Of a stretch of 64,000 bases of DNA, positions 3,893 through 45,546 are shown one piece after another. Position numbers and translations under genes: made by a program. How positions within the stretch are numbered: the stretch's first letter is position 1; the number at the start of each line of letters is the position of its first letter. The DNA is from Tremella fuciformis (lineage: Eukaryota; Basidiomycota; Tremellomycetes; Tremellales; Tremellaceae): assembly GCA_032768795.1 (NCBI GenBank), contig CP136494.1, positions 2,232,001 to 2,296,000 on the forward strand, written 5' to 3'. The notes under the pieces were generated by a model. It made no database searches and was not told the origin of the DNA. It saw only the letters and a list, made by a program, of their open reading frames with translations.

Positions 3893-4942
3893 CTACAGCC
3901 ACTTCTTCGCAATCTGCTCTACAGTCTCCCCTTTGCCCTCGTACGTCTCGACCGGGACCTGGGCCGGGTAGTCCCACTTGCCCGTCTCCCAGTGCCGCTT
4001 GTACGTGGCGGTGACCGGCCCGAAGGGCGGGCTGGCAGCATCGGCCTCCCTGGCGGCATCGTCGTAGTCCAGAACGCTGGGCGCGGTGCCGTTGTGCAGG
4101 TTGGTGAAGGCCTGGACGAGCTCGCGGCCGGTGGGCGTGATCGTGATGGCGGCGAACTTCTTGCCGGCCGTCTCGGCAGGGGGAAGTGCGGCGAGGTGCG
4201 CGAGCGCGGCGCCCAGGTGGTCCATCGTCCTTGGGAGTCAGCTCGACCATCGCGGAGCCTACATGGGGAAGGAGGCGGAGGGGCACTCACGTCAGGGGCA
4301 GGCCGTGCTCGAGCATGCCGGCGTTGGCCTGCAGCACATTCTCCTTGATGTCCGAGCCGGCAAATCTGCACTCAGCGTCACTCCTAGGATGGTTAGGGGG
4401 GTAGGATGCGCACTTGAGAGCGAAGAAGAACTCGTCGAATATGCCCGTGAAGAGGTGGGCGACGCCCACGCCCAGCGTCTCGGCGCGGGTGAAGAACTGC
4501 GTGACGACGGCGTCGAGCATGGCCTTGAGGGCGGGATGGGTCATATCCTCGGGTGCGAAGCGCATGCTGAAGGCGGCCGGGATGAACGTGCCAAAGCCCG
4601 GCAGCTTGCCTGCGGCCTCGAGCAGGGCGACCTGGGCGGCAAAGCCGGTCATGTTGACGCACGAGCTGTGATGAGCATTGTCCATCCGCCCGTATGAGAG
4701 AGTGGGAGGACGCACACGATGACCTGGACCCCCTGGATGGCATTGAGGACCTCGTCCGCGTCGCCCTCAAAGTCGAGCTCGACGACCTTGGCGCCTCCCA
4801 CCTCGGGCAGGCGGCCCTTGGAGCCCGGGCGGATGAGCAGGACAAGCTTGACCTTGCCGGCGCTCTGGGCCTGGAGGAGGTACTTGAGGGCGGCGGAGCC
4901 TACCCGACCGAACGGGGCGAGCAGGGCCACAGTGTTGACCAT
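3893..4942 (-). CDS. NmrA-like NAD(P)-binding protein (copy 2)
   Basis: Tandem paralogue of 2399-3452, with the same exon layout and matching blocks. The start is MVNTVALLAPFGRVGSAALK with the nucleotide-binding glycine motif. Then come LPGFGTFIPAAFSMRF, VGVAHLFTGIFDEFFF and LGAALAHLAALPPAE, ending YEGKGETVEQIAKKWL. The start at 4942 aligns with the start chosen for copy 1. A TATATAAG box on the minus strand near 5014-5021, about 75 bp upstream, supports it. Extra Met codons upstream (to 4987) lie between this box and the start and are less likely. Role unknown beyond the fold; the two copies may have split substrates or regulation. Confidence 0.75.
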
Positions 4943-24018: not shown

Positions 24019-24572
24019 CGTGGTGTTGACGAGGAGTTCAGTCAGTTGTGATTGGTGTCAAAGGTGAGGCAAATGTGGGCCAAGGAAGAGGGGGAGGAAT
24101 GGGGTCGCCCCCGCAGCTATGCTCATATCCAACGGGCTTCAGCATTGGACCGAAGACGGATACACGATCGGTCTGCACCGAAGGAGCCGAATGAGGATGA
24201 AAAGCGCCCACTCGGCATTGTTGGTATTGTTGCCCCTCGAATGGACCGTCCGTCGACGGCGGTTTGTAAATAGTTCATAGGGCTTCCCCGGATATTGGTA
24301 TTCACGGGTTGTCACTTGTCCCTTGGCCCGTACTGGCCCCTAGGTCCTATGTTGCCGCCGGACTGGATCCGTGTCGTTGTGCACGGATTCAGGGACCAAC
24401 GCCTGCCGGATCACCTCTCGGCAAACCTCGGGATCTCGGAGCGACATGTGAAATGGTATTACCCCCCCTCGTCTGGCGAACCTACCTCTTCATCTTCGGT
24501 AGAACTGCGCCAAACTTCTTCTCTCACTCCCACTTCCACCTTGAACAGAGCTCTCGCAACGACGCAGCAAAA
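24019..24572. promoter_or_regulatory. Divergent promoter region, DapA-family aldolase / alcohol dehydrogenase
   Basis: 554 bp between divergent start codons. Contains GTCGACGGCGG near 24252-24262, a partial look-alike of the motif described for the 31-45 kb block. No other gene seen. Confidence 0.45.
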
Positions 24573-31063: not shown

Positions 31064-33302
31064 TCACAGCCCGTTGACGGCCTTGTCCACTATGTTAGCG
31101 ATTCCTAAGAGCTCCTCTTCTCCCCAGCGCCGGCCCACAAGCTGTACGCCGACTGGCGCATTCTGAAGGGCCTCTGGGGTGTAGAACGTATGGTACGAGG
31201 CGTCTATGTCGCTACGTGGCTCGAAAACCTCGTCCACAGGGTCCAACCTCGGATTCACAGAGGTGACAGGGATAGTGACAGACTTTGACTTGAGTTTGAA
31301 AAGCGATGGTTGAACGAGCAAACTCACCGGAACGTCGAGCAAGTTGTAAACAAGGGTGTATCCGGGATATGTGTTCTTCTCCAGAGGTGTTGACGGGCTG
31401 GCGGCGACGGGGCACAGCAGACCATCGATGGGTCGCCCAGTACCTGTCACCGCTGCGGTGCTGACCCATTTCTTGAGGAATGCGGCGCGCTGATGATCAG
31501 ACGTGGAAACCGTGCACTCTGGGACTTGCGTATGCGTCCTTTTTCTGTGTCAACTGCAAGTCAGCCATCCGGGACTCCTTTATGCGCCATGGAAAAAACT
31601 CGCCTTCCACGATTGATGGACCGTCAGCGGAGCACGCGGTGTGACATCGATGCCGGGAATGGGCGTCTCAAGATCAGTATATACAGCCTTCCTTCATCTC
31701 ACAGACTGGAATCAGGCTTACCTCTCCGCTCTCCTCCCAGATCTCCGCCAGGTCGTCAACGGCGCCGGCGGAGAAGATACTGTATGCAGTATCGATCATC
31801 TCACGATGAGCCTCGGGCGTCCATTCGAGCACGGAAGATCAGCATTATTCGAGACGGTGATCGGCGAGAAGGGGAGCCAACCAGTGTGTCCGGCCCGCTT
31901 CAATCGTTCTGTCACGATGCTCATTGCTCGTCGGACGGGTGGCAGCGGCTGAACAACGCCGTCATCCACGAAAAAGGCGAGGCAGAGCTTCGTCCTTGGT
32001 CCATCAAGATGTTCCAACAGATACTGCCTGCCCGTCTCAGAATCCTGAACTCGGAGATGACCACGGTCGACTCACGACTCTCTCCAGGGTATGTCAACCA
32101 CCTTTGCGTCCAGGTCGCGGATCTGCCATGAGCCTTCAGAGACAGCCACCAGACTCTGAACCTCACTCTACGATTACATATCACTCTCAGAAAAGTGACA
32201 CAGCCGCTGAGCGTGCGTGCGATCGGCCCGACGGAGCTTTCGATGGCCTCTGCCATAAGTGTCAGACCTGCGCTTGTGTATGTAGCTCGACAGACCGAGA
32301 CCAAGAAGCGTGTTGGCGGCACCACCATACGGCGTCCGGCGCATGGTCGGTCGGATTCCGTAGAGTCCATTGAAGCTGGCAGGGACGCGAATCGAGCCTC
32401 CGATCTGGGCGTCAATTACTTCCTTACTGAGAGGCCGCTGCACTCACGTCGGTGCCGACACCAAGCGGACTGCGGTGAGCATCTGTATCTGCACTGCTAC
32501 GAGCAGACGCACCTTCCCTTCATGGCTAGCAAGGCGCCTTCCCCACCGCTCGATCCGCCCGGGGTCAACGACCTGTTGAATGGGCTCACAGTCACACCGT
32601 AGACGTGATTCGATGTCTCAACCTTCATCAGTGTTTGGGGCACATTGGTCCTGGCGTAGATGACTGCTCCCGCCTCTCGAAGCACTGTCACCAGGTTCGC
32701 ATCATCGCTCGAGATGCGACCGATCCATGAGGCGAAACCCATGTTCAGCTCCTTGCCCTTGACGTGAAACCTGGCTGTGAGCGAGAACAACCAGAGCTCC
32801 GCTGCCGAGGCAAAGGACAGCCTCACTGATCTTTGAGCGAGACAGGTAGTCCGTGTAGGGGACCGATGGGACGCCCGTGGCGTCGGAGGTATCCATCAAG
32901 CTCTTGGGCACGCTCCAGAGCATCGTCTATCCAAAATTCGGTCAGACAGTTGACCTAAGATCAGTGGTCACAGAAGCTCTGCCGTTCAGTTCGCCAACGT
33001 ACGAGTTGATGCGCGACCAGAGCCCGTTTCAGGTAGGCGGTAGTCACCTCCAATGCCGACCACTGACCGGTGGAAAGACATCGCAACAGGGCGTCGACAT
33101 CGTCAAGTTCGGTGATCTCCAACTCTCTGTGTGAGAGAACGCCGCTTCTTGCAGGTACATCTCGGACATCCAAGACATCGTTCGAAGGTGGAAGCGGAAG
33201 CAGCCATTCTGCCGGTATGGCAGATCGCTGGCTTGCCTTCTTCTGCTGGCAGAGGGCTTGCCAATCGACAGGTGCCATTGCTCTAGTGCTTGCCGCTGTC
33301 AT
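31064..33302 (-). CDS. Amidase signature enzyme
   Basis: Amidase-signature serine hydrolase that cleaves amides to acid and ammonia/amine, of the fungal acetamidase-like group. Catalytic triad: Lys in LHGLPVSLKDQ (joined to FHVKGKELNMGF), the cis-Ser in TPGGSSGGEGALLAM, and the nucleophile Ser in GVGTDIGGSIRVPASF. That last motif is assembled through a 22-nt exon at 32448-32469. Later blocks are SSVGPIARTLSG, SWQIRDLDAKVVDIPW, CLAFFVDDGVVQPLPPVRRA, PLTVHQSWK, LTQKKDAY, RAAFLKKW and TGTGRPIDGLLCPVAA. About twelve exons. Two introns use GC donors (31554-31603 and 31490-31529). Divergent from the P450 gene with a shared motif-bearing promoter. Start at 33302, or a Met eight codons in. Confidence 0.82.
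31490..31529 (-). other. GC-AG intron in the amidase gene
   Basis: Donor GCAAGT after codon TAC, acceptor ATCATCAG, 40 nt. Only this choice joins LTQKKDAY to RAAFLKKW in frame; the nearby GT donor leaves the wrong phase. Confidence 0.65.
31554..31603 (-). other. GC-AG intron in the amidase gene
   Basis: Donor GCGAGT after AAG, acceptor ACTTGCAG, 50 nt. It joins PLTVHQSWK to LTQKKDAY in phase 0, matching the family. A GT two bases on gives a frame that cannot continue. Confidence 0.55.
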
Positions 33303-33604
33303 GTTGTGACTGCCGCTTTAGTCACCCGTCCTGTGTCCCACAAGCGCAGGGATGAGGCACTCTGTCAGACGCTGGCCAAGCATCGGCCTCTTCCGGTGTC
33401 TTCTCAACAAAGTAGCCGTGCGGCAGAACAGCCATGAAGGGTCTTACCCCAAGAGTCCGTGTCACTGATGACGGCGTTTGAAGCCGACGACGGCGACTTG
33501 GGGCGCACTCACTACAAAGCGCTCAAACACGCCCCTTCTTGAGGCGCGTCATACTACTGGACATTGAGGTCAGCTTTGCCCGTGTCCGCCCCAGAATGTT
33601 CGAC
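33303..33604. promoter_or_regulatory. Divergent promoter region, amidase / P450
   Basis: 302 bp between the divergent start codons. It carries two motif copies, GACGGCGTT at 33470-33478 and GACGGCGACTTGGGGC at 33489-33504, roughly 170-200 bp from the amidase start and 100-135 bp from the P450 start. Confidence 0.6.
33470..33504 (+). promoter_or_regulatory. Two copies of the GACGGCGTCTTGGGG-like motif
   Basis: Direct repeat spaced 19 bp start to start: GACGGCGTT and GACGGCGACTTGGGGC. Matches the sites found in the other promoters of the 31-45 kb block. CGG content fits a Zn2Cys6 regulator such as TF-3; this is inference. Confidence 0.5.
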
Positions 33605-35442
33605 ATGACTAGTCTGAGGACTCACGGTTATCTCTCGCCAGTCATCGCACCGCCCAATATGGCGGTCCTGGCTGTAGTCTTGGCCCTCGCCTTTCTCGCC
33701 GTCTCCTTTGGTCCAACCGTCGCCCAATTTCTACGGTACATCGAGTTCACACGGCATCACGACAAGTTTCACCGTACGGCTGCTCAACGATTTCGATCCC
33801 GGGTTGTGTGCTTCCTGAGCTCACCATGGGGCAAGAAGACCTTCTACCTGTCCGACGTCGAGTCCATCAAGAGAATGTTTGCCTCCAATGCCTCGCTGCA
33901 CGCCCATGCACTGGCCGACATACTGCATGACATGGTGTGGGACGTGCCGCGTGATCCTGACATGACCAAAGTCGACAAGATGGTCCACCAAGCCATGGCG
34001 AAAGGCAAACTTGGCAACATGGTCGCAGCATTCGAATCCAATGTTATGCAGGAGATGCAGCGCTACGCCGACCTGGTCGGACAGCAAGGAAAGTTGATGC
34101 CGATTCATCACCTTGGCTTCCGTATCATTTACAATACGACGTGAGCACTTCCTCTGCTTCAAGGTGAAGGAACGTCACTGAGGGCTCAGCGTCCCCGCGG
34201 TGCTTGGTCCGAAATTTCCCCTCGATGCGACGCGCATTCCGAACCAGATCCTCGCCGATTCTATGCAAGGTGAGCGCAGGCTTCCGGCCCTGTGGCACCA
34301 CAGCTGATTGCAGGACTCAACCTAGCGGCAATGCTCCCTATACTTCCCCGAAAGGTGTGGAATTCACTCATCCCAGCCGCCAGACGAGGCATTAGGGCGC
34401 GGGACGCTGTCAAAGAGGAGATTGCCCAATGGGAAAGGAACGGTGGTGTGGCTGCTGCTTCGGACGTGTATCAGAACATCAGTCAAGCTCTTGACGAGAC
34501 GAACGCACCGCCAGATGTGCGGGCGCGCTGGATCAACATGGTTGTAAGTCTTTGTCTTTCCTGCTTGAGTAGCGAGATTGACGATAACAGCAATTCGGTT
34601 TCTCCGGCAACACTGGCGAGACTCTTGGGTGGATCTTGTGCTTCTTATTACAGTCTCCGAAGCTGCTCGAAGAGGTCTTGAACGAGGTCAACGGGTTGCC
34701 TGAAGGTACTCTTGCCGAACTGCCGTTGCGGCAGTTGTGCCGCAAGTTTTTTGAGCAATCTGTGCAGGTTGGCCATGCTGATGAGCAGCTCACATGGACT
34801 CAGCGATACACGAAACGCTCAGATATGTCGGATCCGTGTTTTCGGGTCGACTGGTGCTGAAGCCGGTCAAGTTGCAAGGGATCGAGAAAACTTTCCCAAG
34901 GGGTTCGATTCTACGTGCCATGACCCGCTCTGCGACTTTTGATGAGTCTGTCTGGGGCGATGATGCGCACCTCTACAGAGGAAACCGCTTTGTCGGCCAC
35001 GAGGAGCTGTTTCGACAGCTGCAGGTATTCGGTGGTGGGGTGTCAGCATGCCGTCAGTCTGACACAGGTCAAAGAGGGTCACAATATGCTGACGCGGAAC
35101 AGCAGGACGGCACTTTGCGACACACGAGCTCCAGATCGTTACCGCGCATGTACTGCGGTCCTTCTCCTTTGGGCCTTTCAGCTTTCACGAGAAGAATCGA
35201 CCACAGGACGCGATTGACTTGATTCGCCCGATCGTGAAGAATGGGCCAACGATGGCCATCATCGACAACGACGGGAGTCACCTGGAGGTGGGCTATTCTG
35301 GATTTGACATTGATAGTGGTACGTTCTCGGCTGCCTGTAGAGCGAAGCGCGAGCTGAAGCGGTAGGCGTTGAGGCGATCTCCGGGCTGCTGGTTCCCAAG
35401 TACGAGCCAGTGGCATGGGTTCGACCGACCACGGGGTTTTGA
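33605..35442 (+). CDS. Cytochrome P450
   Basis: Membrane-anchored P450 monooxygenase of the fungal group that resembles CYP7/CYP8-type enzymes. The N-terminus MTSLRTHGYLSPVI is followed by the anchor helix MAVLAVVLALAFLAV; other in-frame Met codons lie at 33539 and 33596. The I-helix oxygen-binding segment is FGFSGNTGETLGW. The K-helix E-x-x-R is AIHETLRYVG. The heme-binding loop is VFGGGVSACPGRHF, with the Cys just before an intron. The C-terminus is EAISGLLVPKYEPVAWVRP. About seven introns; one at 34742-34788 is GC-AG and joins LPLRQLC to PHMDSAIHETLR. Divergent from the amidase and 145 bp upstream of TF-3. Confidence 0.85.
34742..34788 (+). other. GC-AG intron in the P450 gene
   Basis: Donor GCAAGT after TGC C, acceptor GATGAGCAG, 47 nt. 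It restores LPLRQLCPHMDSAIHETLR, which is the expected lead into the K-helix. No GT donor in the correct phase keeps these residues. Confidence 0.7.
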
Positions 35443-35475
35443 CGGAAGGAGTTTCGGTCATGCGGCGACTTGGAA

Positions 35476-35490
35476 GACGGCGTTTTGGGC
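35476..35490 (+). promoter_or_regulatory. GACGGCGTTTTGGGC motif upstream of TF-3
   Basis: Lies in the 145-bp gap between the P450 stop and the TF-3 start, about 100 bp before the start codon. Same motif as in the neighbouring promoters; suggests autoregulation of TF-3 (inference). Confidence 0.5.
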
Positions 35491-35587
35491 TGAGGCGGGT
35501 CAAAGTGGCCGAACCGTAGTCGCCGTTGCCCAGCGCGAAGGCCCCAAAGCCTGCTCGGTATCATGCATTCTTCTGTCTACATCGCAC

Positions 35588-38500
35588 ATGTCCGCGGGTC
35601 AAGCACGGCAGCTTGCCTGGCTCACGAGTCACGAAAGGGACACGACGGCTGCGGCGCCCACAGCAGTGGGGCAGACCATGAAGCCGTCCCCGGGAGAAAC
35701 CTCTCGCAAGCGGCCAGCCGCCGATGGTCTGGCTCGCGTAGCATGTCTGGGCGTGAGCCCTCCACTTGTGGGGCAACAGAGTGAAGACTGACTTTCAGTG
35801 TCGAAAGGTACTACCGCGAGCAAATCAGAGTCTCGGAAAAGGTCGCTGACAGCAGGTCAAGGTTCGGTGTCAGGCTGTTGGAGAGACGGATGCCTGTGAT
35901 CGTTGCTTGAAGCTGAGAGTTCAGGTAAGTTATGTCAACATGACTCTCTCAGGGCAATGGCAACTGCCTGTATCGCTGATACCGCTCAGTGCGAGCGACC
36001 AGAGTCGCTGCGCGGGAAATGGGATCGGAAGCGTCATCCCGATAAAAGAACTGCTTCGGGCAGTCCGAAACCATCTCAACCTCCCATGATCGATTCTCAC
36101 TCCGAGGCTAATCCCCTCCCATCCCGCTCACCTCATGTGGCACAACCCCAGCTTGACCCGCTGGCGGGCTTCTCGTTCGAGACCGAAGATTCCCTGGCGG
36201 CGCTCACTTCACTCGCAACCTCTTCCCGCCAAACGCTCTTGCCGGATGTGACCATTCGGTCGTCCAAAGATTCCGACTGGTCGTCCGACGTCCCACCCAC
36301 GGAGCAGAATCCGCATATACAGTCAGGTGCGGAAGAAGTGAGAGACTTCAATGGGAGACTTCACTTTAAAATCGCACATCAGGTCCCACCCTATGGCATT
36401 CTGGCTGAGACGAGTATGGAGCTCAGCGATAGCCTGGTTCCGGGGCACGGTAGACCAGGACGTCACCCGCCTCCGGATCCAGGTCGATTGGGTCAACATA
36501 CCCTTCTAGGTATGGCCAACAATGGGTATTTCGCTCAGAGCCTACAGAAACGTAGGTTGCCCCAGAAGGAAAGAGGAGACCTGAAGCTTCAGATCTCAGG
36601 CCATCACGCAGCGGCCAAACACGGACCCCTGCCATCTTGGCTCAAAACATAATTACAGTCGAACAGGTCGGTCCCTCACATGCAGCTTACACGCTGACTG
36701 TGATGCTGACTGTAAGAGCAGAAACCTATTCGAGGTGTTTTTCAAGCATTGCCAACCGTTGGTAGCATTGCTGGATGACCGGATCGTGACTCCCTCGGTA
36801 TGCTCGTCCAAAAGCCCATTCCTTTTCACAGTCGGTCAGTATCCCATGGCTCCCGGATCATACTGCACTGAATTGAGGAAGTTTGTGCGGTCGCGTCCAG
36901 ATATCGGCAGAGCGACCTCCTGTTCAAGAGACTCCTCAAAGAAGCTCATCGAGAAGGCATGGAAGGTCAGTCTGGTCAGCGGACAGCAGAGGATAGCGCT
37001 CACCTACAGCGATGTTCAGCGCAAAGTAGGTCTCTACATTGTCGTGAGGGCCAGTGCTGACATGAAAGATCCGTTTGCACTGTGTGTCTAAGACAGGCTA
37101 TTTTGTGGTATTACTTATACCGCAGGTACAAGGCTTCCTGTTGATGTCCTGGTGGAATCAACCGACGGCATCGTTCGAGGACGATAACACGTGTGAGTGT
37201 TCGACTGTGTCTGACGATTGTGAAGCTGATGGTACGAGACCTGTATGCCGGTATTGCCTTTCGGTATGCACCATAACGTCAAACACGTCTCATTCTGACA
37301 GCTAGTATCGCTCAAGAAATCGGCCTGCATCATACCGTTCGCATCAACTTTCCACTCGGCTTCAACCCAGATGTACAAAAGCAGTATGAGCTCGAGCTGC
37401 TCGATCGGCAACGGACCTACCGGTGCTGCTACGTCCACGACCGGAACATCATGTCCCAGGGCGGAAAGCCCGACTCGATGCTGGTCTGCTTCACCTAAGG
37501 ATACTGAGCATAGTCGCTGACAGAACCAGGAGACATACACGATCCGCGCTGCGCGTACCGATTACGATCATCCGCTGCGAACGCTTTACGATGTACGGGT
37601 CGCGGCTAACGTGTGAGTCTTTGCCTCAAATTCCCTCGTGACACTTGCCTGAAACCACAGGGAGCGGATGCAAGTCATCGTGAGAACAGCACCCATGTCA
37701 CAACAAAGGCTGATGGCAGACTCGGCTGTTCTACTTGATTTACATCAATGTGGACTCGCTGAGCGGGATCAGCTCGTCCATAGACTTGTGCGCAACCGAC
37801 AATCAATAACATACACTTACTGACCGGACAGTGGGCGCCTGGTTGTCCGCGACATGCATTTTCGGATCGACAATTGGTACAACACTTGGAGTGGGGTCAT
37901 TCGCAACGATTATGCCTCACATCCTTCTCATGATCTCTATCAAGCGCTTTTGGGCATCGAAAAGGTTGGACAGATCCACGGCAACAGATCGAATCACGCT
38001 GAATTTAGCAGAGTGTCACCAAGCTGAACCTCTTCTACATCTGCCTAGCACGCCTGCTTCAGAGTGACCCCGCCAGCCTCGAAACCATCAGCTTCACCGT
38101 GGCGTGCTACTCGAGCGCTCAGGACGTTTTGCAGATGACTCGAGACCGGCTGGGCAATTTGGGTGTGCTGAGATATGCACCGGACTTCATGCTTATTGAC
38201 ATCGTGTACTGCGCAACAATACTTTTGAAAGTGAGTAGCCAGCACAAGGAATCTGGGATCGGCTGATACACTCCAGCTAGTTCGCTCAGACGTCTCGCAT
38301 GTGCTTGAGCGCAACACTGCCATGGAACTCGTGCATGACGTGATTTTGGTGTTGGAGAACGCGGCGGAAGACGAAACACATCCTCCTAGTTGGTGCTCTT
38401 GCGGACTCCAGGACTCTCAGCTGATCCAACAGTGCTCTACGCAATATTCTTGCGCAAGCAGATTGCTCACATTCGTGATCAATCCGAGCCCACGAATCGC

Positions 38501-38824
38501 CCCGACGATCTCTCCTCTTTACTTCTCTCGGACATCCTCGCGCCCGAGAGTGTGGGCCAACAGCCCAGTGGCGAGAATCCTGGGCCGGCACTCCCGCAAC
38601 AAACGATTGACTATGTGTCGGGGAGCACAACCGACCCTTTCAGGCCGGAAAGTCTGTTTGATAGTATCTGGTTGGACACACTACTCTCCACCCAATTCAA
38701 CAGCATACGGCCGGTAGGTGTCCCACACCGTTTGCTCGCTGACAGCAGTATGTTGGGGACACTGAAAGCGGATTTTGGGAATTGTTTGGTCGGGAAGACA
38801 AGGAAGGATGATGGTGCTTGCTGA
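35588..38824 (+). CDS. Zn2Cys6 transcription factor (TF-3)
   Basis: Large fungal zinc-cluster regulator inside the motif-bearing block. The start is MSAGQARQLAWLTSHERD. The zinc cluster is spread over four exons: ARVACLG, then a 9-nt exon (35799-35807, residues CRK), then VKVRCQAVGETDACDRCLKL, then CERPESLRGKW. This gives C-x2-C-x6-C-x8-C-x2-C-x6-C. The middle region includes LLGMANNGYF and NLFEVFFKHCQPLVALLDDR, the start of the fungal-specific TF domain. Later blocks are LLMSWWNQPTASFEDDNT, IGLHHTVRINF and NLGVLRYAPDFMLIDIV. More than ten short introns; several central junctions are unresolved. The stop is 50 bp from the stop of the convergent transketolase gene. Probable regulator of the block. 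Confidence 0.75.
35799..35807 (+). other. 9-nt microexon in TF-3
   Basis: TGTCGAAAG encodes Cys-Arg-Lys, with the second Cys of the zinc cluster. It is flanked by introns 35753-35798 (GTGAGC to TTTCAG) and 35808-35855 (GTACTA to AGCAG), both phase 0. Reading through either intron meets a stop codon. Confidence 0.7.
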
Positions 38825-38874
38825 GCATTGCTGACAATCATGCATGTGTGCAGATATTTTCGTATGAGCTGATC

Positions 38875-41343
38875 TCAAACGGCCGCACGCCGATCCGAGC
38901 TGAGATGGTCGGCCAGCAGATTCTCGAAATCTCCAACACCAGGCAGCTTCCAACCGTCTTGGCAGCGTTTGGAGAGGGCGTAGTGCGTGATTCGCTCGAC
39001 CAGATTGTCCACCCCAAAGCCGAAATGATCATAGAGTATCTCCTCGGGAGCGGCTCGACCGAAGGTGTGCATGTGACACCCGGCATGAGCATACTGGCTC
39101 CACCCATGAGAGACCCAGTTCTCGATGGAGATAACGAGACACCGGTCAGAGGGAATGGTGTCCAGTCGGTACGCACGAGGCTGCCTGTCGAAATGCTTGA
39201 AGCTCGGCATGGAGACCACCCGCGTGCTGTAGCCTGTCTCCGCCTCCAGGCGCTTGGCGACCTCTACAGCACGCCATACCTCGCCACCTGTTGCTAGTAA
39301 GACCATGTCCGGCATCTGGTCAGCGTTACCATGTACCACGTACGCTCCGAAGGCGACCTTGGTGCGATCGGTACCGGGTAGCAGAGGGAGCGCATGTCGA
39401 CTCAGTGACAGGATCGACGGGTTCTCTCTGCATTCGAGGGCGACCATGTAGGCACCCATCGTCTCCTCGGCGTCCGCCGGTCGAATGAAGTTCATGTCGG
39501 GCAGCGCGCGGTAGAAGGCGGAGAGCGCAACTGGTTGATGGGTGGGACCGTTGTCCCCGGTGCTAATTGAGTCGTGCGTTGCAATGCCGATCCACTGCAG
39601 CTTCTGCAAAGCACCCATCCGTGCTGCAGGCGCTGCGTAAAGCCAGAACATGAGGAATGTCGACATGATACTACACATAAGCTGGACGATTCCTGTTTCT
39701 TACAACGTCCAGAAACGTACGGCACGAAGAAGCCCTTGTGAAAAGCCACCATGCCGTTGCCTGCGGCCACCATAGCAAATTCGCGGATTCCGAAGCGTAT
39801 CTGTCTGCCAGTGTAGTCACCTAGACCCGACTTGGGCTGGCTGTAAGCGTTCCGTCTAAGCATTGGTCACGCTCGTCCAACCAACATTCTGATATTCAAC
39901 CTGGCCTTTAAACCCCAAGTTTGTTGTCTCTTGCAAATCGGCGCTGCCTGCCACTAATATTGGGTCGCACGGAACAAGAGCGTTGATGGCGATCCCGCTG
40001 GCCTTTCGAGTGGCTATTGGTCCCTGCGGTAGTACAGCTTTGGCGGGTAGTTGATTAACCCAACCTGGGTTGAGGGTCCCTGCGAGCCGTCGCTGCAGCT
40101 CCGCCCATAAGTCGGGATGCTGTTTCCTGTATTCTCCCATCATCCCGTTCCATTCCTCCTCCAGTCGCTTCCCGCGAGGTATGCAAGGCGCGAAATATCG
40201 ATAGACCTCCTGGGGTACCACGAAGTGCTCCTTCGGATCGAACCCAAGTTGCTCTTTCACATGTGCCAAGTCGTCGCTGCCCAAGGCGGCTCCGTGGACT
40301 GCGCCGCTATTCTGCTTGCTGGATCCGAACCCGATGATGGTCCTGATATTGATCATGACTGGCTTGCTGGACTTGGTCTCCACCTCCCGGAAAGCCTGCA
40401 CGATGGCTTGCAGCTGCTATCAGTCCAGCTCCATATAGGCAGCCCGAACATACATCGTTTGAACCATCGTACACGTCGATCACATCCCACCCACACGCAC
40501 GGAATCTTGCGTTAACATCTTCCGTGAAACACGCCTCTATACCCCCATCGAGAGTGACGGCATTGTTATCGTAGACCAAGACGAGGTTGTCCAAGCCGAA
40601 ATGACCGGCCATGGAGATGGCTACACATCAAGATATGCCTTGTGCTTCCGAGAAGGGGGACTCACCCTCATGAGCCACCCCCTCTTGCAAGCAGCCGTCT
40701 CCTGCGAAACACCACACTTTAGCGGTCATGAGCGGGAAGTCCGGTCGGTTGAAGAGTGCAGCGATCTGTTTTCCTGCCATGGCCATTCCCACCGCATTGG
40801 CCACACCCTGTCCCAGTGGTCCCGTGGTCACCTCGATCCCGGGAAACTCGATCTCTGGATGCCCAGTGGCGATGACATCCATCCGGGATGCGTGGTATTT
40901 TTTGATCTCGTCAAGGGTCCAGCTCGAATACCCGCTGAGGTGAAGCAAGATGTATTGCAGAAGAGACGCATGGCCCGCTGAGAGCACAAAGCGGTCTCGA
41001 TTGAACCACTCGGGATTACTGGGGTTGTACCGGAGCTGGTACCGCCATAATGCAACACCGATTGCAGCTGCTCCCATGACTGTACCTGGGTGCCCTCCAC
41101 TGTACTGCGAGGATCAGTTGTGAATCCTATCGTAGTGGCACGACACTTGCCTGTTCACACAAATCTGCAGCCAGCACTCTAATGGTGTTGATGGCAAGCC
41201 GCTCGGTGTCGGGCTGCAAAGCTCAGGTCACTCCTGGCAATGTCGAGGGGACTTACGCTGGACACCTCCGCCGGTACATTCTCGTCTCTCTCCAACTTGT
41301 TCCCATGCTGCCGTGGCTCGGACGCCGCACCGTGGGTCAACAT
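38875..41343 (-). CDS. Transketolase, dihydroxyacetone-synthase-like
   Basis: Thiamine-diphosphate-dependent transketolase closest in motif pattern to fungal dihydroxyacetone synthase (formaldehyde transketolase). Blocks: DTERLAINTIRVLAADLCEQ joined to YSGGHPGTVMGAAAIG; GHPEIEFPGIEVTTGPLGQG; the ThDP motif GDGCLQEG ... LVYDNNAVTLDGG; FRACGWDVIDVYDG; IRTIIGFGSSKQNSGAVHG; the catalytic Glu region RQIRFGIREFAMVAAGNGM; THDSISTGDNGPTHQPV. The WFNRDRFVLSAGHASLLQYI block is also typical. Introns include a GC-AG one at 41105-41150. Start at 41343. It would transfer a C2 unit from a ketose phosphate to formaldehyde or an aldose. No C-terminal peroxisomal signal is apparent (it ends SSDRRAAV). Confidence 0.87.
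41105..41150 (-). other. GC-AG intron in the transketolase gene
   Basis: Donor GCAAGT after CAG, acceptor CTCGCAG, 46 nt. It joins DLCEQ to YSGGHPG, the invariant start of the family. GT donors nearby give the wrong phase. Confidence 0.75.
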
Positions 41344-41816
41344 GACGCTGCACTTAGGGCTCTAGATGGTTACGAGTGGCTGGCTTTTACTGTGGACGGC
41401 CAGAGAGTCGCATAGCTTATAACAGAGACATTCAGATGTACTGCTCTCAACTCAACGTTGCCGGACCGAGTACCGGAGGACGGCGTCTTCTCAGGTCGGT
41501 CCATTATACGAAAGAGACCGAAGCGTTAGGCATGTGGTGAGGTCACTGGTCAAATGGCCCATTGCCATCGGGCCCAGACTTTGGACAGACGCCGCTACGG
41601 TGTTATACGACAGCCGGCGGTGTCATAGGGCCAGATCAAGTCAGCGCGGCCAAAGACAGCTTTCCCCCCTCATGGCACACGGCGTGAACACCTCAAGCCA
41701 CACTATAGGGACCGATTTCGCGTGCTTTGGCCCGACGAACCAGCCTCTTGTCCGTACACAAACTGGCCGGCTTCATGGCAGGTGCATCTTAACGCGTCCC
41801 CATGCTGTTGTGTATG
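41344..41816. other. Intergenic region, transketolase promoter
   Basis: 473 bp holding the transketolase promoter, with the composite motif at 41470-41490, and the 3' flank of the reductase gene. No gene seen. Confidence 0.5.
41470..41490 (+). promoter_or_regulatory. GTACCGGAG plus GACGGCGTCTTC motif
   Basis: GTACCGGAG (41470-41478) is immediately followed by GACGGCGTCTTC (41479-41490), 127-147 bp upstream of the transketolase start. The same two elements occur in the same order at 43267-43294. Confidence 0.55.
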
Positions 41817-43136
41817 TTACCAATTCTTACCGCGTTCCAACTTCAATAGATCCTCCATCTCCGGGACTATGGCGTCTTCGATACTGGTCCAATGAAGCAC
41901 ACCGAGGTCTCGTTCTACCTTTGAGACGTCCACCCAGAAGTGAGGCTGGAGCGACTGCTTCTCCACCGGTATGTCGGGGAATCTGTCAGCAATCTCAGGA
42001 ATAGAATGCTTCAGGATTGCGAACAGCTGGGAGTAGTTGTAGTAGCCCGAATTCTACTGAGTCAGCGACCACGCCCAGGGAGCATGTGGCTTCACTGACG
42101 ACCTGATACCGCTGACCGCCGGCGAGTGGGCTATTCAAGGAGCGGACCACGACTTGTGCCAAGTCCACCACGGCCGTAAACGCAGGGTATGGGTTACTGG
42201 GCAGGGCGCTGAGCGCGTTCAGAGTGTAGTTGTAGAACCCTTGACGAGTCAGCCTTGCCTTCCTGTCATGTGCCCACTTACGGCGGGAAGCTGTGTCCAG
42301 CTCGTCGATCGACGAGAGCGGTTGAACGAGCGGCCCGTAATTGGTCGCTGCCGTCTGAGCTCAAACCTCATGTGTGTCAACTATATACATACACGGGTTG
42401 AAAGTAACCACATCAAAGGCGTGCGGGGTATCTCTGAGCCATTGGGCAGCACGTTCTTCAGCATACTTTTTCGAGAAAGCTGTAGTCAGCCCACATTCTT
42501 GAAGCAGCTCAGAGAGCTCACTGTATGCGTATTGTCGATCGCTATTCTTCTCCCCCACGGCCTGTTCTAATGTATGCAAATTGTAGTTGGTGTCATCGTA
42601 TGTGACGTGTGACCAGTCCGCGTCCTGAACATCGGGAGGATGCTGGTGGATAGCAGCCACAGAGCTGATATGGATCACTCGTCGGACCGTAGGCTCCGCG
42701 TTCGCAGCTTTCAGGACGTTCAGTATGCCCTCGACACTCTGATCGATCATCTGCCGTGCGACCTGGCGCGTGAGCTTCTTCAGTGCGTCCAATGAGGTGA
42801 AGGGCGGACGGTGTGATTGTAGTTGAACGGTCCCGCACAGTGTATGACAGCTTCACAACCCTTGACTGCCTCGTGGTACACATCAGCCTGCGTCTGGTCC
42901 GACACGACCGTCCATGTAAGACCGCTGGCGGGCCATTTTGCCATGAACTGCTGCACCTTCTCCGGGCGCCTGGTGGTGGCGTGGACTTTGTATCCCTGTC
43001 GAGCCAACGCAAGAGCGATGTGCGAGCCTGAAATGCCTGTTGCCCCAGTGACCAGAATCTTTGGTCCTGGAAACTCGCTAGGAAAGCCGTTCGGGTTGAT
43101 TGGACCACGAGTTGAGCCGTATTTTGGGATCGTCAT
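41817..43136 (-). CDS. NAD-dependent epimerase/dihydroflavonol-reductase-like protein
   Basis: Extended SDR of the DFR/aldehyde-reductase group. The start MTIPKYGSTRGPINPNG precedes KILVTGATGISGSHIALALA (GxxGxxG). Next come KVHATTRRPEK, where Arg residues suggest NADP, and AVIHCAGPFNYNHT, then SVEGILNVLKAA and VRRVIHISSVAAI (catalytic Ser). The Tyr-x3-Lys motif is rebuilt by an intron as QYAYTFSKKYAEE, where the second Tyr is out of the usual place, so the exact catalytic Tyr needs alignment. Then FDVVTFNP joins YGPLVQPL. The C-terminus is HWTSIEDAIVPEMEDLLKLE, ending KNW. About six introns. Divergent from the NCS1 permease with a motif-rich promoter between them. Confidence 0.8.
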
Positions 43137-43463
43137 GGCGAAAAAGAGGAGTATGGGAAGGAGCGCAACACCCCCAGAATCGAAATGGTTCGCATCATGA
43201 AGGTGTTACTCCTGGAGTCACGGCCCGAATTGCCTCGATGCGATCCTACATCGGCGTCTTGGGGCGGTACCGGAGACAGCGAGACGGCGTCCCCAAAGAC
43301 GGCGTCTTGCCGCCGTCTTGGTCGTATTCCCCTATCGCCTTGGTCGTCAGAGGCTTCTCCCCTTTCCCCGTTGTTCTTTATAACGGCAGCGCGAACGAGT
43401 CATGATCCGAGCTCCCATCGCTTCTTGGAAAGTTCTCGACCCTCGCCTCCGAACAGATTCACC
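43137..43463. promoter_or_regulatory. Divergent promoter region, reductase / NCS1 permease
   Basis: 327 bp between divergent starts, with the densest group of the block's motif at 43251-43320. Confidence 0.6.
43251..43320. promoter_or_regulatory. Cluster of four GACGGCGTCTTGGGG-like sites
   Basis: TCGGCGTCTTGGGGC at 43251-43265, GTACCGGAG at 43267-43275, GACGGCGTCCCC at 43283-43294, GACGGCGTCTTG at 43298-43309, and an inverted copy GCCGTCTTG at 43312-43320. The last two form an inverted repeat (GACGGC ... GCCGTC), as expected for a dimeric zinc-cluster regulator. The sites lie 115-185 bp from the reductase start and 145-215 bp from the permease start. Confidence 0.6.
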
Positions 43464-45546
43464 ATGTTCTCCAGCCTTTTCGATAGGGCAGCCTGGAAGG
43501 AGAAGTTGTTAGTGAGCAACGATGACAGCGACTTTGAGCGCACCAACTGGTGCAACCGTGACCTCATACCGATGCCCAAAGGCAAGTGGAAGTGTGGGCG
43601 CATAGCAATGGACTGACCGAGATAGAGCGTCGTACTTACGGCATGCCTTCCTTCTTCCTCTGGTGGTTTACTGGCGGTTTGTAAGTTCGGCTTGGCTCAC
43701 CTGATGAGCGTGGCTCTGGCTCACGTAACAGCTCCATCGTCAATTACACCACTGTCAGTCTCGCGTAAACCAGGCTCTGATCCTCTTCTGACCTAGATTA
43801 GGGCTCCGCCTTCATCGCTTACGGTCTCACTGGCCAACAATCCCTGGTGAGTCTGCCGCCCCGTTAACTCGATTCGAGGCCGACGAGTAGATTTGCGCTA
43901 TCGTCGGTCCTATCATCTTGGGCATCATCGCAATGGCCGCCGGCTGGATGGGCGCAAACCATCACATTGGCTTCACCGTTTCTAACCGTATGATCCACGG
44001 AATGCGCGGCTCGTATCTATTCATCATGTTTCGCGCTGTGCCCGCCCTCATCTACGACGGCATCGAAGGTAAGAGACCCCGTCTACTTTTGGCGGCTTTC
44101 GATATTGACGGGCCATAGCCTATTGGGGCGGTCAAGCTGTGTCGGCCATGATTGGGGCCATGTCACTGCACTGGACAAGAATCGATACCGTCTGGGCCTC
44201 CGGCACACTCAAAGCCACCGACTTTGCTGGCTTCTGCCTCTTCTACATCGCCTTTCTGGCGGTCATGCGCCTGCCCCCGGAGAGACTGCAGATCCCCTTC
44301 ATCTGCACCACGATAGGTTTTGGCGCGACCATCATCGGCCTCCTGGCCTGGTCGACATCGACCGTCGGCAACGCTGGTCCTTACTTCCACGGCGTGGTCG
44401 AGGCCGAACATGGCAACCTCGGTTGGTCGACCATGTTTGGTCTGATGGCCATCGTCGGCAACTTCTCGCCTGCAAAGTGAGAACAGCCCGCACTACTGTG
44501 ATATCTGAGGATGCGTGCTGAGTTGTGCAGCATAAGCATGTCTGACTGGACGCGATATGCCAAGACCAAGCGGGCAGCCACGATCAGCCAGCTAATCGGT
44601 TGCCCGCTCTCCATGAGCCTGTCGTGCATTATCGGCATTGTTGTCACATCGTGCGCCAAAGAGATTGTCGGGTCGCCCGTGTGGCAACCGTACAGCCTCC
44701 TGCAGGTCATTCAACAGCACTACAATAACGCCCCCGGGGTTCGCGCTGCCGTGTAAGTGGACCGCCTCCCCCACGCAAGCAGCACGGCTGATAGATCAGC
44801 TTTTTTGCTGGACTCGCATGCGCCGCTGCCCAAGTCAACGTCAACATTGTCGGCCATTTCATACTATAACATGTCCTTTGCGACTGATGTCGAGATCCTG
44901 AACAGCGTCGCAGCCGCGATCGATATGACGGCGCTCTGTCCCAAGTACTTGAACATCCGTCGCGGGGCCTATATCGTCGCGGCCGTTGGCCTGGCAACGT
45001 GCCCGTGGCAGATCACTTCGGCCGCTGCGACCTTCCTGGCAGTCCTCGGTGTCAGTTGAAGCGCCTGCGCTACCATAATCGGCTCAGCTGAATGAGTAGG
45101 GCTTTGGCGTCTTCTACGGTCCTTGCTGCGGTATCCAGCTATGCGAATATTTCATCATCCGCAGGCAGCACATCAAGCTCGAGGACCTGTACGTGGGCGG
45201 ACCCGACTCGATTTACTGGTTTTGGCACGGCTTCAATCCGCGCAGCCACCTCTCGTTCCTCCTGGCCCTGGTGCCCACTCTGCCGGGCTTCATCATGGTC
45301 GTCCGCGGCGCGAGGCCCGATACTGATCCGTGGGTGCGCATGTATCACCTGGGTTTCCTGCTCGGGTTGGTGACTGCCTTTGTCGCCCATCTCGTCATTT
45401 GTACCGTGTTTCCCCCGCCGCATCGCCTCGAGGGAGTAACGGAACACGTCGACGTCGATCTGTCCAGAGAACTCGACACGGCGACAGATCCCCCGACCGA
45501 GATCGAAAGCAAGGAGGGGGTGTACATCTCCACCACAGTCGCCTGA
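43464..45546 (+). CDS. NCS1-family permease (nucleobase/allantoin/vitamin type)
   Basis: Nucleobase:cation symporter-1 family permease in the plasma membrane. The start MFSSLFDRAAWKEKLL leads to NRDLIPMPK, joined by a GC-AG intron (43582-43625) to ERRTYGMPSFFLWWFTGG, the conserved pre-TM1 motif. Later helices have AIVGPIILGIIAMAAGWMGA, GFTVSNRMIHGMRGSYLFIM, HWTRIDTVWASGTLKATDF and HGNLGWSTMFGLMAIVGNFS. SDWTRYAKTKRAAT is also a family signature. Near the end are YFIIRRQHIKLEDLYVGGPD and IYWFWHGFNPRSHLSFLLAL. About ten introns. Known substrates of fungal members are uracil, uridine, allantoin, hydantoins, thiamine and pyridoxine; which one here is unknown. Confidence 0.87.
43582..43625 (+). other. 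GC-AG intron in the NCS1 gene
   Basis: Donor GCAAGT after AAA G, acceptor GAGATAG, 44 nt. It joins PMPK to ERRTYG, the family motif, which no GT donor achieves. Confidence 0.7.

Follow-up and report, generated by a model that had tools for sequence, protein, structure and literature searches.

The window analysed here is a 64,000-bp stretch of Tremella fuciformis DNA (contig CP136494.1; C5:2232001-2296000) from a genome of 11 contigs and 28.14 Mb. It contains a block of six genes in the order amidase (-), cytochrome P450 (+), TF-3 (+), transketolase (-), reductase (-) and NCS1 permease (+), TF-3 being a Zn2Cys6 regulator. Four intergenic regions, R1-R4, which sum to 1,237 bp, serve all six genes. 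They have in common a word with the core CGGCGWCTTGG, where the third base is G or C, W is A or T and an extra G often follows. This motif is shared by R1-R4, enriched in them and concentrated in the block, and we regard it as a probable recognition site of TF-3. Genes were modelled with a home-made splicer and by eye, and the intergenic borders were taken from these models. The G+C content of the region is 53-57%. The genes and intergenic regions are as follows.

31064..33302, minus strand: amidase (PF01425, 302.5 bits; spliced model of 550 aa)
33304..33595: R1, divergent promoter of amidase and P450, between the modelled start codons
33596..35442, plus strand: cytochrome P450 (PF00067, 63.7 bits after re-splicing of the I-helix and heme regions)
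35443..35587: R2, TF-3 promoter (145 bp)
35588..38870, plus strand: TF-3, Zn2Cys6 regulator (PF00172 and PF04082; many short introns; 3' end not fixed)
38875..41343, minus strand: transketolase-family enzyme resembling dihydroxyacetone synthases (722-aa model; Transketolase N, pyr and C domains)
41344..41816: R3, transketolase promoter (473 bp, from the gene models)
41817..43136, minus strand: NAD(P)-dependent reductase of the epimerase/NmrA/3-beta-HSD superfamily (379-aa model)
43138-43464: R4, divergent promoter of reductase and NCS1, its last base being the A of the NCS1 start codon
43464..45546, plus strand: NCS1-type permease (PF02133, 273.7 bits)

The initial annotation had listed eight copies of the motif, in all four promoter regions of the block. 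All eight are present at the places given, those at 33470 and 43283 matching in their first half alone. The supposed inverted copy at 43312 does contain GCCGTC, and it is better read as the plus-strand site CGCCGTCTTGG at 43311. Two further sites, at 35463 and a weak one on the minus strand at 33448-33460, were absent from that list. The sites are as follows.

33448..33460, minus strand: weak site ACGGACTCTTGGG (matrix score 13.5; more than one mismatch to CGGCGTCTT)
33470..33478, plus strand: half-matching site GACGGCGTT, read at 33470 as GACGGCGTTTGAAGC (first half only)
33491..33503, plus strand: site CGGCGACTTGGGG, read from 33489 as GACGGCGACTTGGGG (105 bp to the P450 ATG, 189 bp to the amidase ATG)
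35463..35473, plus strand: site CGGCGACTTGG, read at 35463 as CGGCGACTTGGAAG
35474..35489, plus strand: site AAGACGGCGTTTTGGG, read from 35476 as GACGGCGTTTTGGGC (core near-palindromic)
41479..41489, plus strand: site GACGGCGTCTT, read at 41479 as GACGGCGTCTTCTCA (core 138 bp to the ATG; the weakest region)
41586..41594, minus strand: 1-mismatch site CGGCGTCTG
43252..43264, plus strand: site CGGCGTCTTGGGG, read from 43251 as TCGGCGTCTTGGGG (116 bp to the reductase ATG, 212 bp to the NCS1 ATG)
43283..43291, plus strand: half-matching site GACGGCGTC, read at 43283 as GACGGCGTCCCCAAA (first half only)
43296..43308: perfect 13-bp palindrome AAGACGGCGTCTT, read at 43298 as GACGGCGTCTTGCCG (four places in the genome)
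43311..43321, plus strand: site CGCCGTCTTGG

The better copies stand 105-212 bp upstream of the modelled start codons, in agreement with the earlier estimate of about 100-215 bp. Since the motif had been picked by looking at these very promoters, the choice of the word was repeated on the null sequences. Every 9-mer was counted in R1-R4 on either strand with at most one mismatch, with an identical procedure for the nulls. The top word of this unbiased count was CGGCGTCTT, with 12 sites spread over all four regions (3, 3, 2 and 4 in R1, R2, R3 and R4). In two cases (35474/35478 and 43296/43300) a pair of matches represents a single near-palindromic core read on both strands, so that the 12 matches amount to 10 places. 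Among 120 simulated quartets of regions, 60 under each of two Markov models, no 9-mer exceeded 7 matches, and among 150 quartets taken from actual stretches of this genome none exceeded 8. With 11-mers, not one simulated quartet shared a word across its four regions, whereas the block's own quartet has ACGGCGTCTTG, with five sites.

The background for density comparisons consisted of 18 stretches of 10 kb, coding DNA included, 16 of them from contig C1 and 2 from beside the window; L009, L010 and L029 were excluded because they had been chosen for carrying the motif. With at most one mismatch, 12 of the 36 CGGCGTCTT matches of the window fall within the 1,237 bp of R1-R4. This corresponds to 9.7 per kb, against 0.38 per kb in the rest of the window and 0.42 per kb in the 180 kb of background (76 sites; a 23-fold difference). 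Exact CGGCGWCTTG occurs four times in 64 kb, always in block intergenics (33491, 35463, 43252 and 43300), the expectation for 1,237 bp being 0.011 (248 in 28.14 Mb). CGSCGWCTTGG likewise has all four of its window matches in R1-R4 (33491, 35463, 43252 and 43311) and one in the background, while the looser CGSCGWYTT has 17 in the window, nine of them in R1-R4, and 16 in the background. Six of the eight window matches to the full 15-mer (at most three mismatches; expected 2.87) lie in R1-R4.

In a held-out test, each region in turn was scored with a matrix built from the other three, the reference being 4,000 length-matched segments drawn at random from the background. The p values were 0.0002 for R1, 0.017 for R2, 0.17 for R3 and 0.0002 for R4 (Fisher, 3.9e-7). 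The matrix consensus was aCGGCGTCTTgGg, sometimes with C at the third place or A for T. At score 10 the matrix found 19 places in R1-R4, many of them by construction, one in the 8,924 bp of the block genes, 28 in the 53,839 bp making up the rest of the window and 82 in the 180,000 bp of background. R3 has the exact core CGGCGTCTT, of which about 0.007 copies would be expected in 473 bp (426 in the genome), but it lacks the GGGG that trails the best sites. Motif fitting by expectation-maximization with a loose prior was discarded, as each run returned some 40 diffuse sites (39.5-45.4); the stricter version used instead still gives 26 places scoring above 6.5 in R1-R4.

The form of the site speaks to the kind of protein that might bind it. 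The initial annotation had taken the GACGGC...GCCGTC pair in R4 as suited to a dimeric Zn2Cys6 protein. This reading was not supported. CGG/CCG pairs in inverted, everted or direct arrangement with 0-20 bp between them give 63 combinations, none of which occurs in all four regions, and so a fixed-spacing CGG dimer is not their common denominator. Besides, 6-bp inverted pairs are commonplace: one or more occurs in 52% of random 327-bp stretches (mean 0.93), and R4 has four. The pair was thus rejected as evidence for a dimer. The R4 hairpin is unremarkable as well (z -1.80; matched by 6 of 200 shuffles). Most copies of the motif are asymmetric and its core has a single CGG, and an asymmetric, possibly monomeric site fits better than a CGG inverted repeat. 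The second motif proposed to precede the first in two promoters, GTACCGGAG, is indeed common to two regions and over-represented (three window copies for an expected 0.32; not reached in any of 100 shuffles). However, the transketolase gene contains its third copy, and some 9-mer is shared by 74% of stretch pairs drawn at random with these lengths. We consider this second motif doubtful and set it aside, although it is not disproved. Overlapping it, at 43264-43273, is GCGGTACCGG, one base off the Leu3-type everted site.

Outside the block, look-alikes exist, as the initial annotation had cautioned: GACGGCGG is at 24255, and GACGGCGTC recurs at 4506 and 30348. A single 1-mismatch CGGCGTCTT match occurs in the 2,722 bp of four further intergenic regions of the window, delimited by eye. 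In the window plus 21 stretches of 9.5-10 kb, R4 is the sole place with at least four matches in 330 bp. At seven other genome places near the 14-mer, there are 0-2 1-mismatch matches within 330 bp, against three at the block's own place. The upstream DNA (about 0.9 kb ahead of the first exon that matched) of two of the five other transketolase-family loci is nearly free of sites, one having a single 1-mismatch match about 780 bp upstream and the other none; this suggests that the element tracks the block and not the enzyme family.

Candidates for further regulon members were sought across the genome. CGGCGWCTTGGGG has four copies in 28.1 Mb, two of them in the block, and the two others fall in apparent coding frames. 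These two exact 13-mers, at L034 (inside a 118-aa frame, by eye a Tom20-like start) and L035 (inside a 328-aa frame), were rejected, as were the palindrome copies at L032 (inside a 129-aa frame) and L031 (short frames alone, by eye a dehydrogenase exon). The same applies to the converging site pairs C2:2463975 and C6:1318212, both in apparent coding sequence, the latter in a gene read by eye as AROM. A single palindrome AAGACGGCGTCTT at L030:1501-1513 is apparently non-coding, about 120 bp past an open-frame end, with an HSP70-like start (by eye) some 940 bp further on.

TF-3 has the domains of a Zn2Cys6 regulator. Its zinc cluster, C-x2-C-x6-C...C-x2-C-x6-C, is present (PF00172, 25.9 and 24.4 bits; cut-off 21), and so is the Fungal_trans middle homology region (PF04082, 39.3 bits; cut-off 23). 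Judging by its reading frames TF-3 is intact, the zinc cluster being joined from four exons as ACLGCRKVKVRCQAVGETDACDRCLKLRVQCE (splicing by eye). A nine-base micro-exon at 35799-35807 (TGTCGAAAG, Cys-Arg-Lys; likewise spliced by eye) would supply the second cysteine of the cluster. The ortholog from Naematelia encephala (P0121) is 57% identical over 91% and keeps the DNA-binding domain. TF-3's own 145-bp promoter has two sites, at 35463 and 35476. A cluster-resident zinc-cluster activator that controls both its cluster and itself is a usual arrangement in fungi; AlcR sits in its own catabolic cluster, though its site and pathway differ from those of TF-3.

Because the block contains an intact Zn2Cys6 gene whose own promoter carries the motif, and because such autoregulated residents are usual in fungi, we think it reasonably probable that CGGCGWCTTGG is the site recognised by TF-3, acting as the activator encoded in the block, and that the six genes form an autoregulated, pathway-specific regulon. 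A motif found so far above chance before six genes suggests that they are probably switched on together by a local regulator. TF-3 would sit on the copies in R1-R4, the better of them 105-212 bp before start codons, and activate amidase, P450, transketolase-family enzyme, reductase and NCS1 permease, as well as itself by positive autoregulation. Its binding would be asymmetric, as in Pho7 or AlcR, rather than that of a CGG inverted-repeat dimer, and the regulated pathway may import and degrade a nitrogen-containing compound. We infer all of these elements (TF-3 as binder, TF-3 as activator, asymmetric binding and the nitrogen-compound pathway) from sequence.

Could chance or base composition account for the shared word? 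The core GACGGCG is common, with 38 copies in the window, CGGCGTCTT has a background of 0.42 per kb, and R3 alone reaches only p 0.17. Nevertheless, 12 matches were reached by none of the simulated or real-genome quartets of random stretches, and two of the four regions have a held-out p of 0.0002, so that we find this explanation extremely improbable. Local duplication, in which promoter segments were copied between block promoters and the word is functionless leftover homology, is also very unlikely, if slightly less so. R4 does contain two GACGGCGTC units spaced by 15 bp, and R2 has two CGG units 15 bp apart (CGG-N12-CGG). However, the likeness ends at the edges of the word, the flanks of 33489, 35476, 41479 and 43251 being different, and the better copies lie on the plus strand regardless of gene direction, yet keep to 105-212 bp from start codons.

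A more serious alternative is that the cis-element is real but its regulator is encoded elsewhere, as another zinc-cluster protein or a general factor, TF-3 being just one target. Enrichment is silent on which protein binds, and one copy of the full palindrome (L030) precedes an HSP70-like gene in DNA that is apparently non-coding. Across the genome, the longer words outnumber their reversed controls (248 against 175 for CGGCGWCTTG; 64 against 32, twofold, for CGGCGWCTTGG), which makes further sites elsewhere possible. On the other hand, the 9-mer core CGGCGTCTT is not over-represented in the genome (426 against 461 for the reversed word), and no other place in the stretches surveyed matches the crowding in R4. 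This concentration makes the sites look dedicated to the block, as expected of a cluster-resident regulator, and we rate a distant regulator as rather unlikely. The excess of the longer words nonetheless counts against TF-3 control as proposed here, and so do several other observations. The core's single CGG has no fixed partner, and the classical dimer picture fails; R3, taken singly, does not reach significance with the full matrix, and its top place in the held-out test is 41509 (-), not the claimed 41479; the tandem 15-bp units within R4 raise the copy count. Finally, the TF-3 ortholog of N. encephala and the sole transketolase-family relative listed for that species are on contigs that differ in length (91,563 and 128,938), a mild argument against a conserved block.

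Known systems offer partial parallels to control by TF-3. According to PMC5559640, the fission yeast Zn2Cys6 protein Pho7 controls phosphate-starvation genes through the site TCG(G/C)(A/T)xxTTxAA, with two direct-repeat sites in the pho1 promoter. Judged by this site description alone, the likeness lies in an asymmetric CG(G/C) followed some bases on by TT, in the choice of G or C at the third base and in several copies per promoter. The two differ in that CGS and TT are four bases apart here and three in Pho7, that the flanks are GG here and AA in Pho7, and that TF-3 is inside its putative cluster. The same paper describes AlcR of Aspergillus as a Zn2Cys6 protein binding as a monomer, a precedent, again by description alone, for a monomer-binding zinc-cluster activator. 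The nitrate cluster of Hansenula polymorpha, with YNA1/YNA2 (PMC4559421), likewise has transporter, enzymes and zinc-cluster activators adjoining, the other genes and the pathway being different. The zinc cluster of TF-3 aligns weakly with dimeric proteins of the Leu3/Put3/Ppr1 type (E 0.06-0.7); unlike what these would lead one to look for, R1-R4 have just one near-Leu3 place and no fixed CGG spacing in common. In the titles and abstract openings listed we found no report on this motif or gene set, and of the 25 papers that contain eleven-base forms of the word or their complements, none has a title on a fungal binding site. The motif itself looks new, and the arrangement looks ordinary for fungi.

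The transketolase-family enzyme gives a hint about the pathway. It scores 711 bits against a Kuraishia capsulata protein (a dihydroxyacetone synthase in one source) and 568 bits against the best PDB transketolase, in separate searches. Its Tremellales relatives are 60-62% identical; two of the three best carry the name dihydroxyacetone synthase, while others are called transketolase. The breakdown of a methylated nitrogen compound would suit a set made up of a P450, a nucleobase/hydantoin-family importer, an amidase and an enzyme that may be able to fix formaldehyde, and the dihydroxyacetone-synthase likeness hints, speculatively, at formaldehyde salvage after P450 demethylation. In such a catabolic regulon, NCS1 would import a methylated nitrogen compound, the P450 would strip its methyls as formaldehyde and the dihydroxyacetone-synthase-like enzyme, co-regulated through the asymmetric single-CGG site, would salvage it; the yeast need not be methylotrophic. 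We consider this scheme as a whole quite unlikely. Dihydroxyacetone synthases of methylotrophic yeasts carry a peroxisomal C-terminal signal, and no such signal is found in the block enzyme, whose model ends RRAAV. Both this lack of an SKL-type end and the separate contigs in N. encephala speak against formaldehyde salvage. The lack may not discriminate, since none of 65 relatives (P0001-P0065) has an SKL end either. Five further transketolase-family loci are present in the genome (C1:8552870, C2:3577473, C3:715359, C4:2148931-2151156 and C8:1087039-1088862), 45-71% identical to the block enzyme stretch by stretch; the C8 locus, the least similar of them, may be the housekeeping gene.

Regarding the surroundings, the block (31064-45546) sits about 80-94 kb from the end of C5 (2,357,500). 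Many fungal clusters are subtelomeric, and this block, being near the end of its contig, may be so too. No RNA families or tRNAs were found in the window. The closest protein relatives of two window genes are from Tremellomycetes, such as Kwoniella and Naematelia. For the P450, none of the 7,996 candidates scored in a search of 5.8 billion proteins reached E <=0.001, with a query model that was missing the I-helix and some of the heme region, and elsewhere in its own genome there is just one 31% fragment.

In summary, our results provide a candidate binding site for a basidiomycete zinc-cluster regulator, concrete enough to test, and group six genes as one unit, which narrows the pathway they may serve. 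If formaldehyde salvage proved true, it would point to what this genome may use its several transketolase-family genes for; if not, the block would be a normal fungal cluster.

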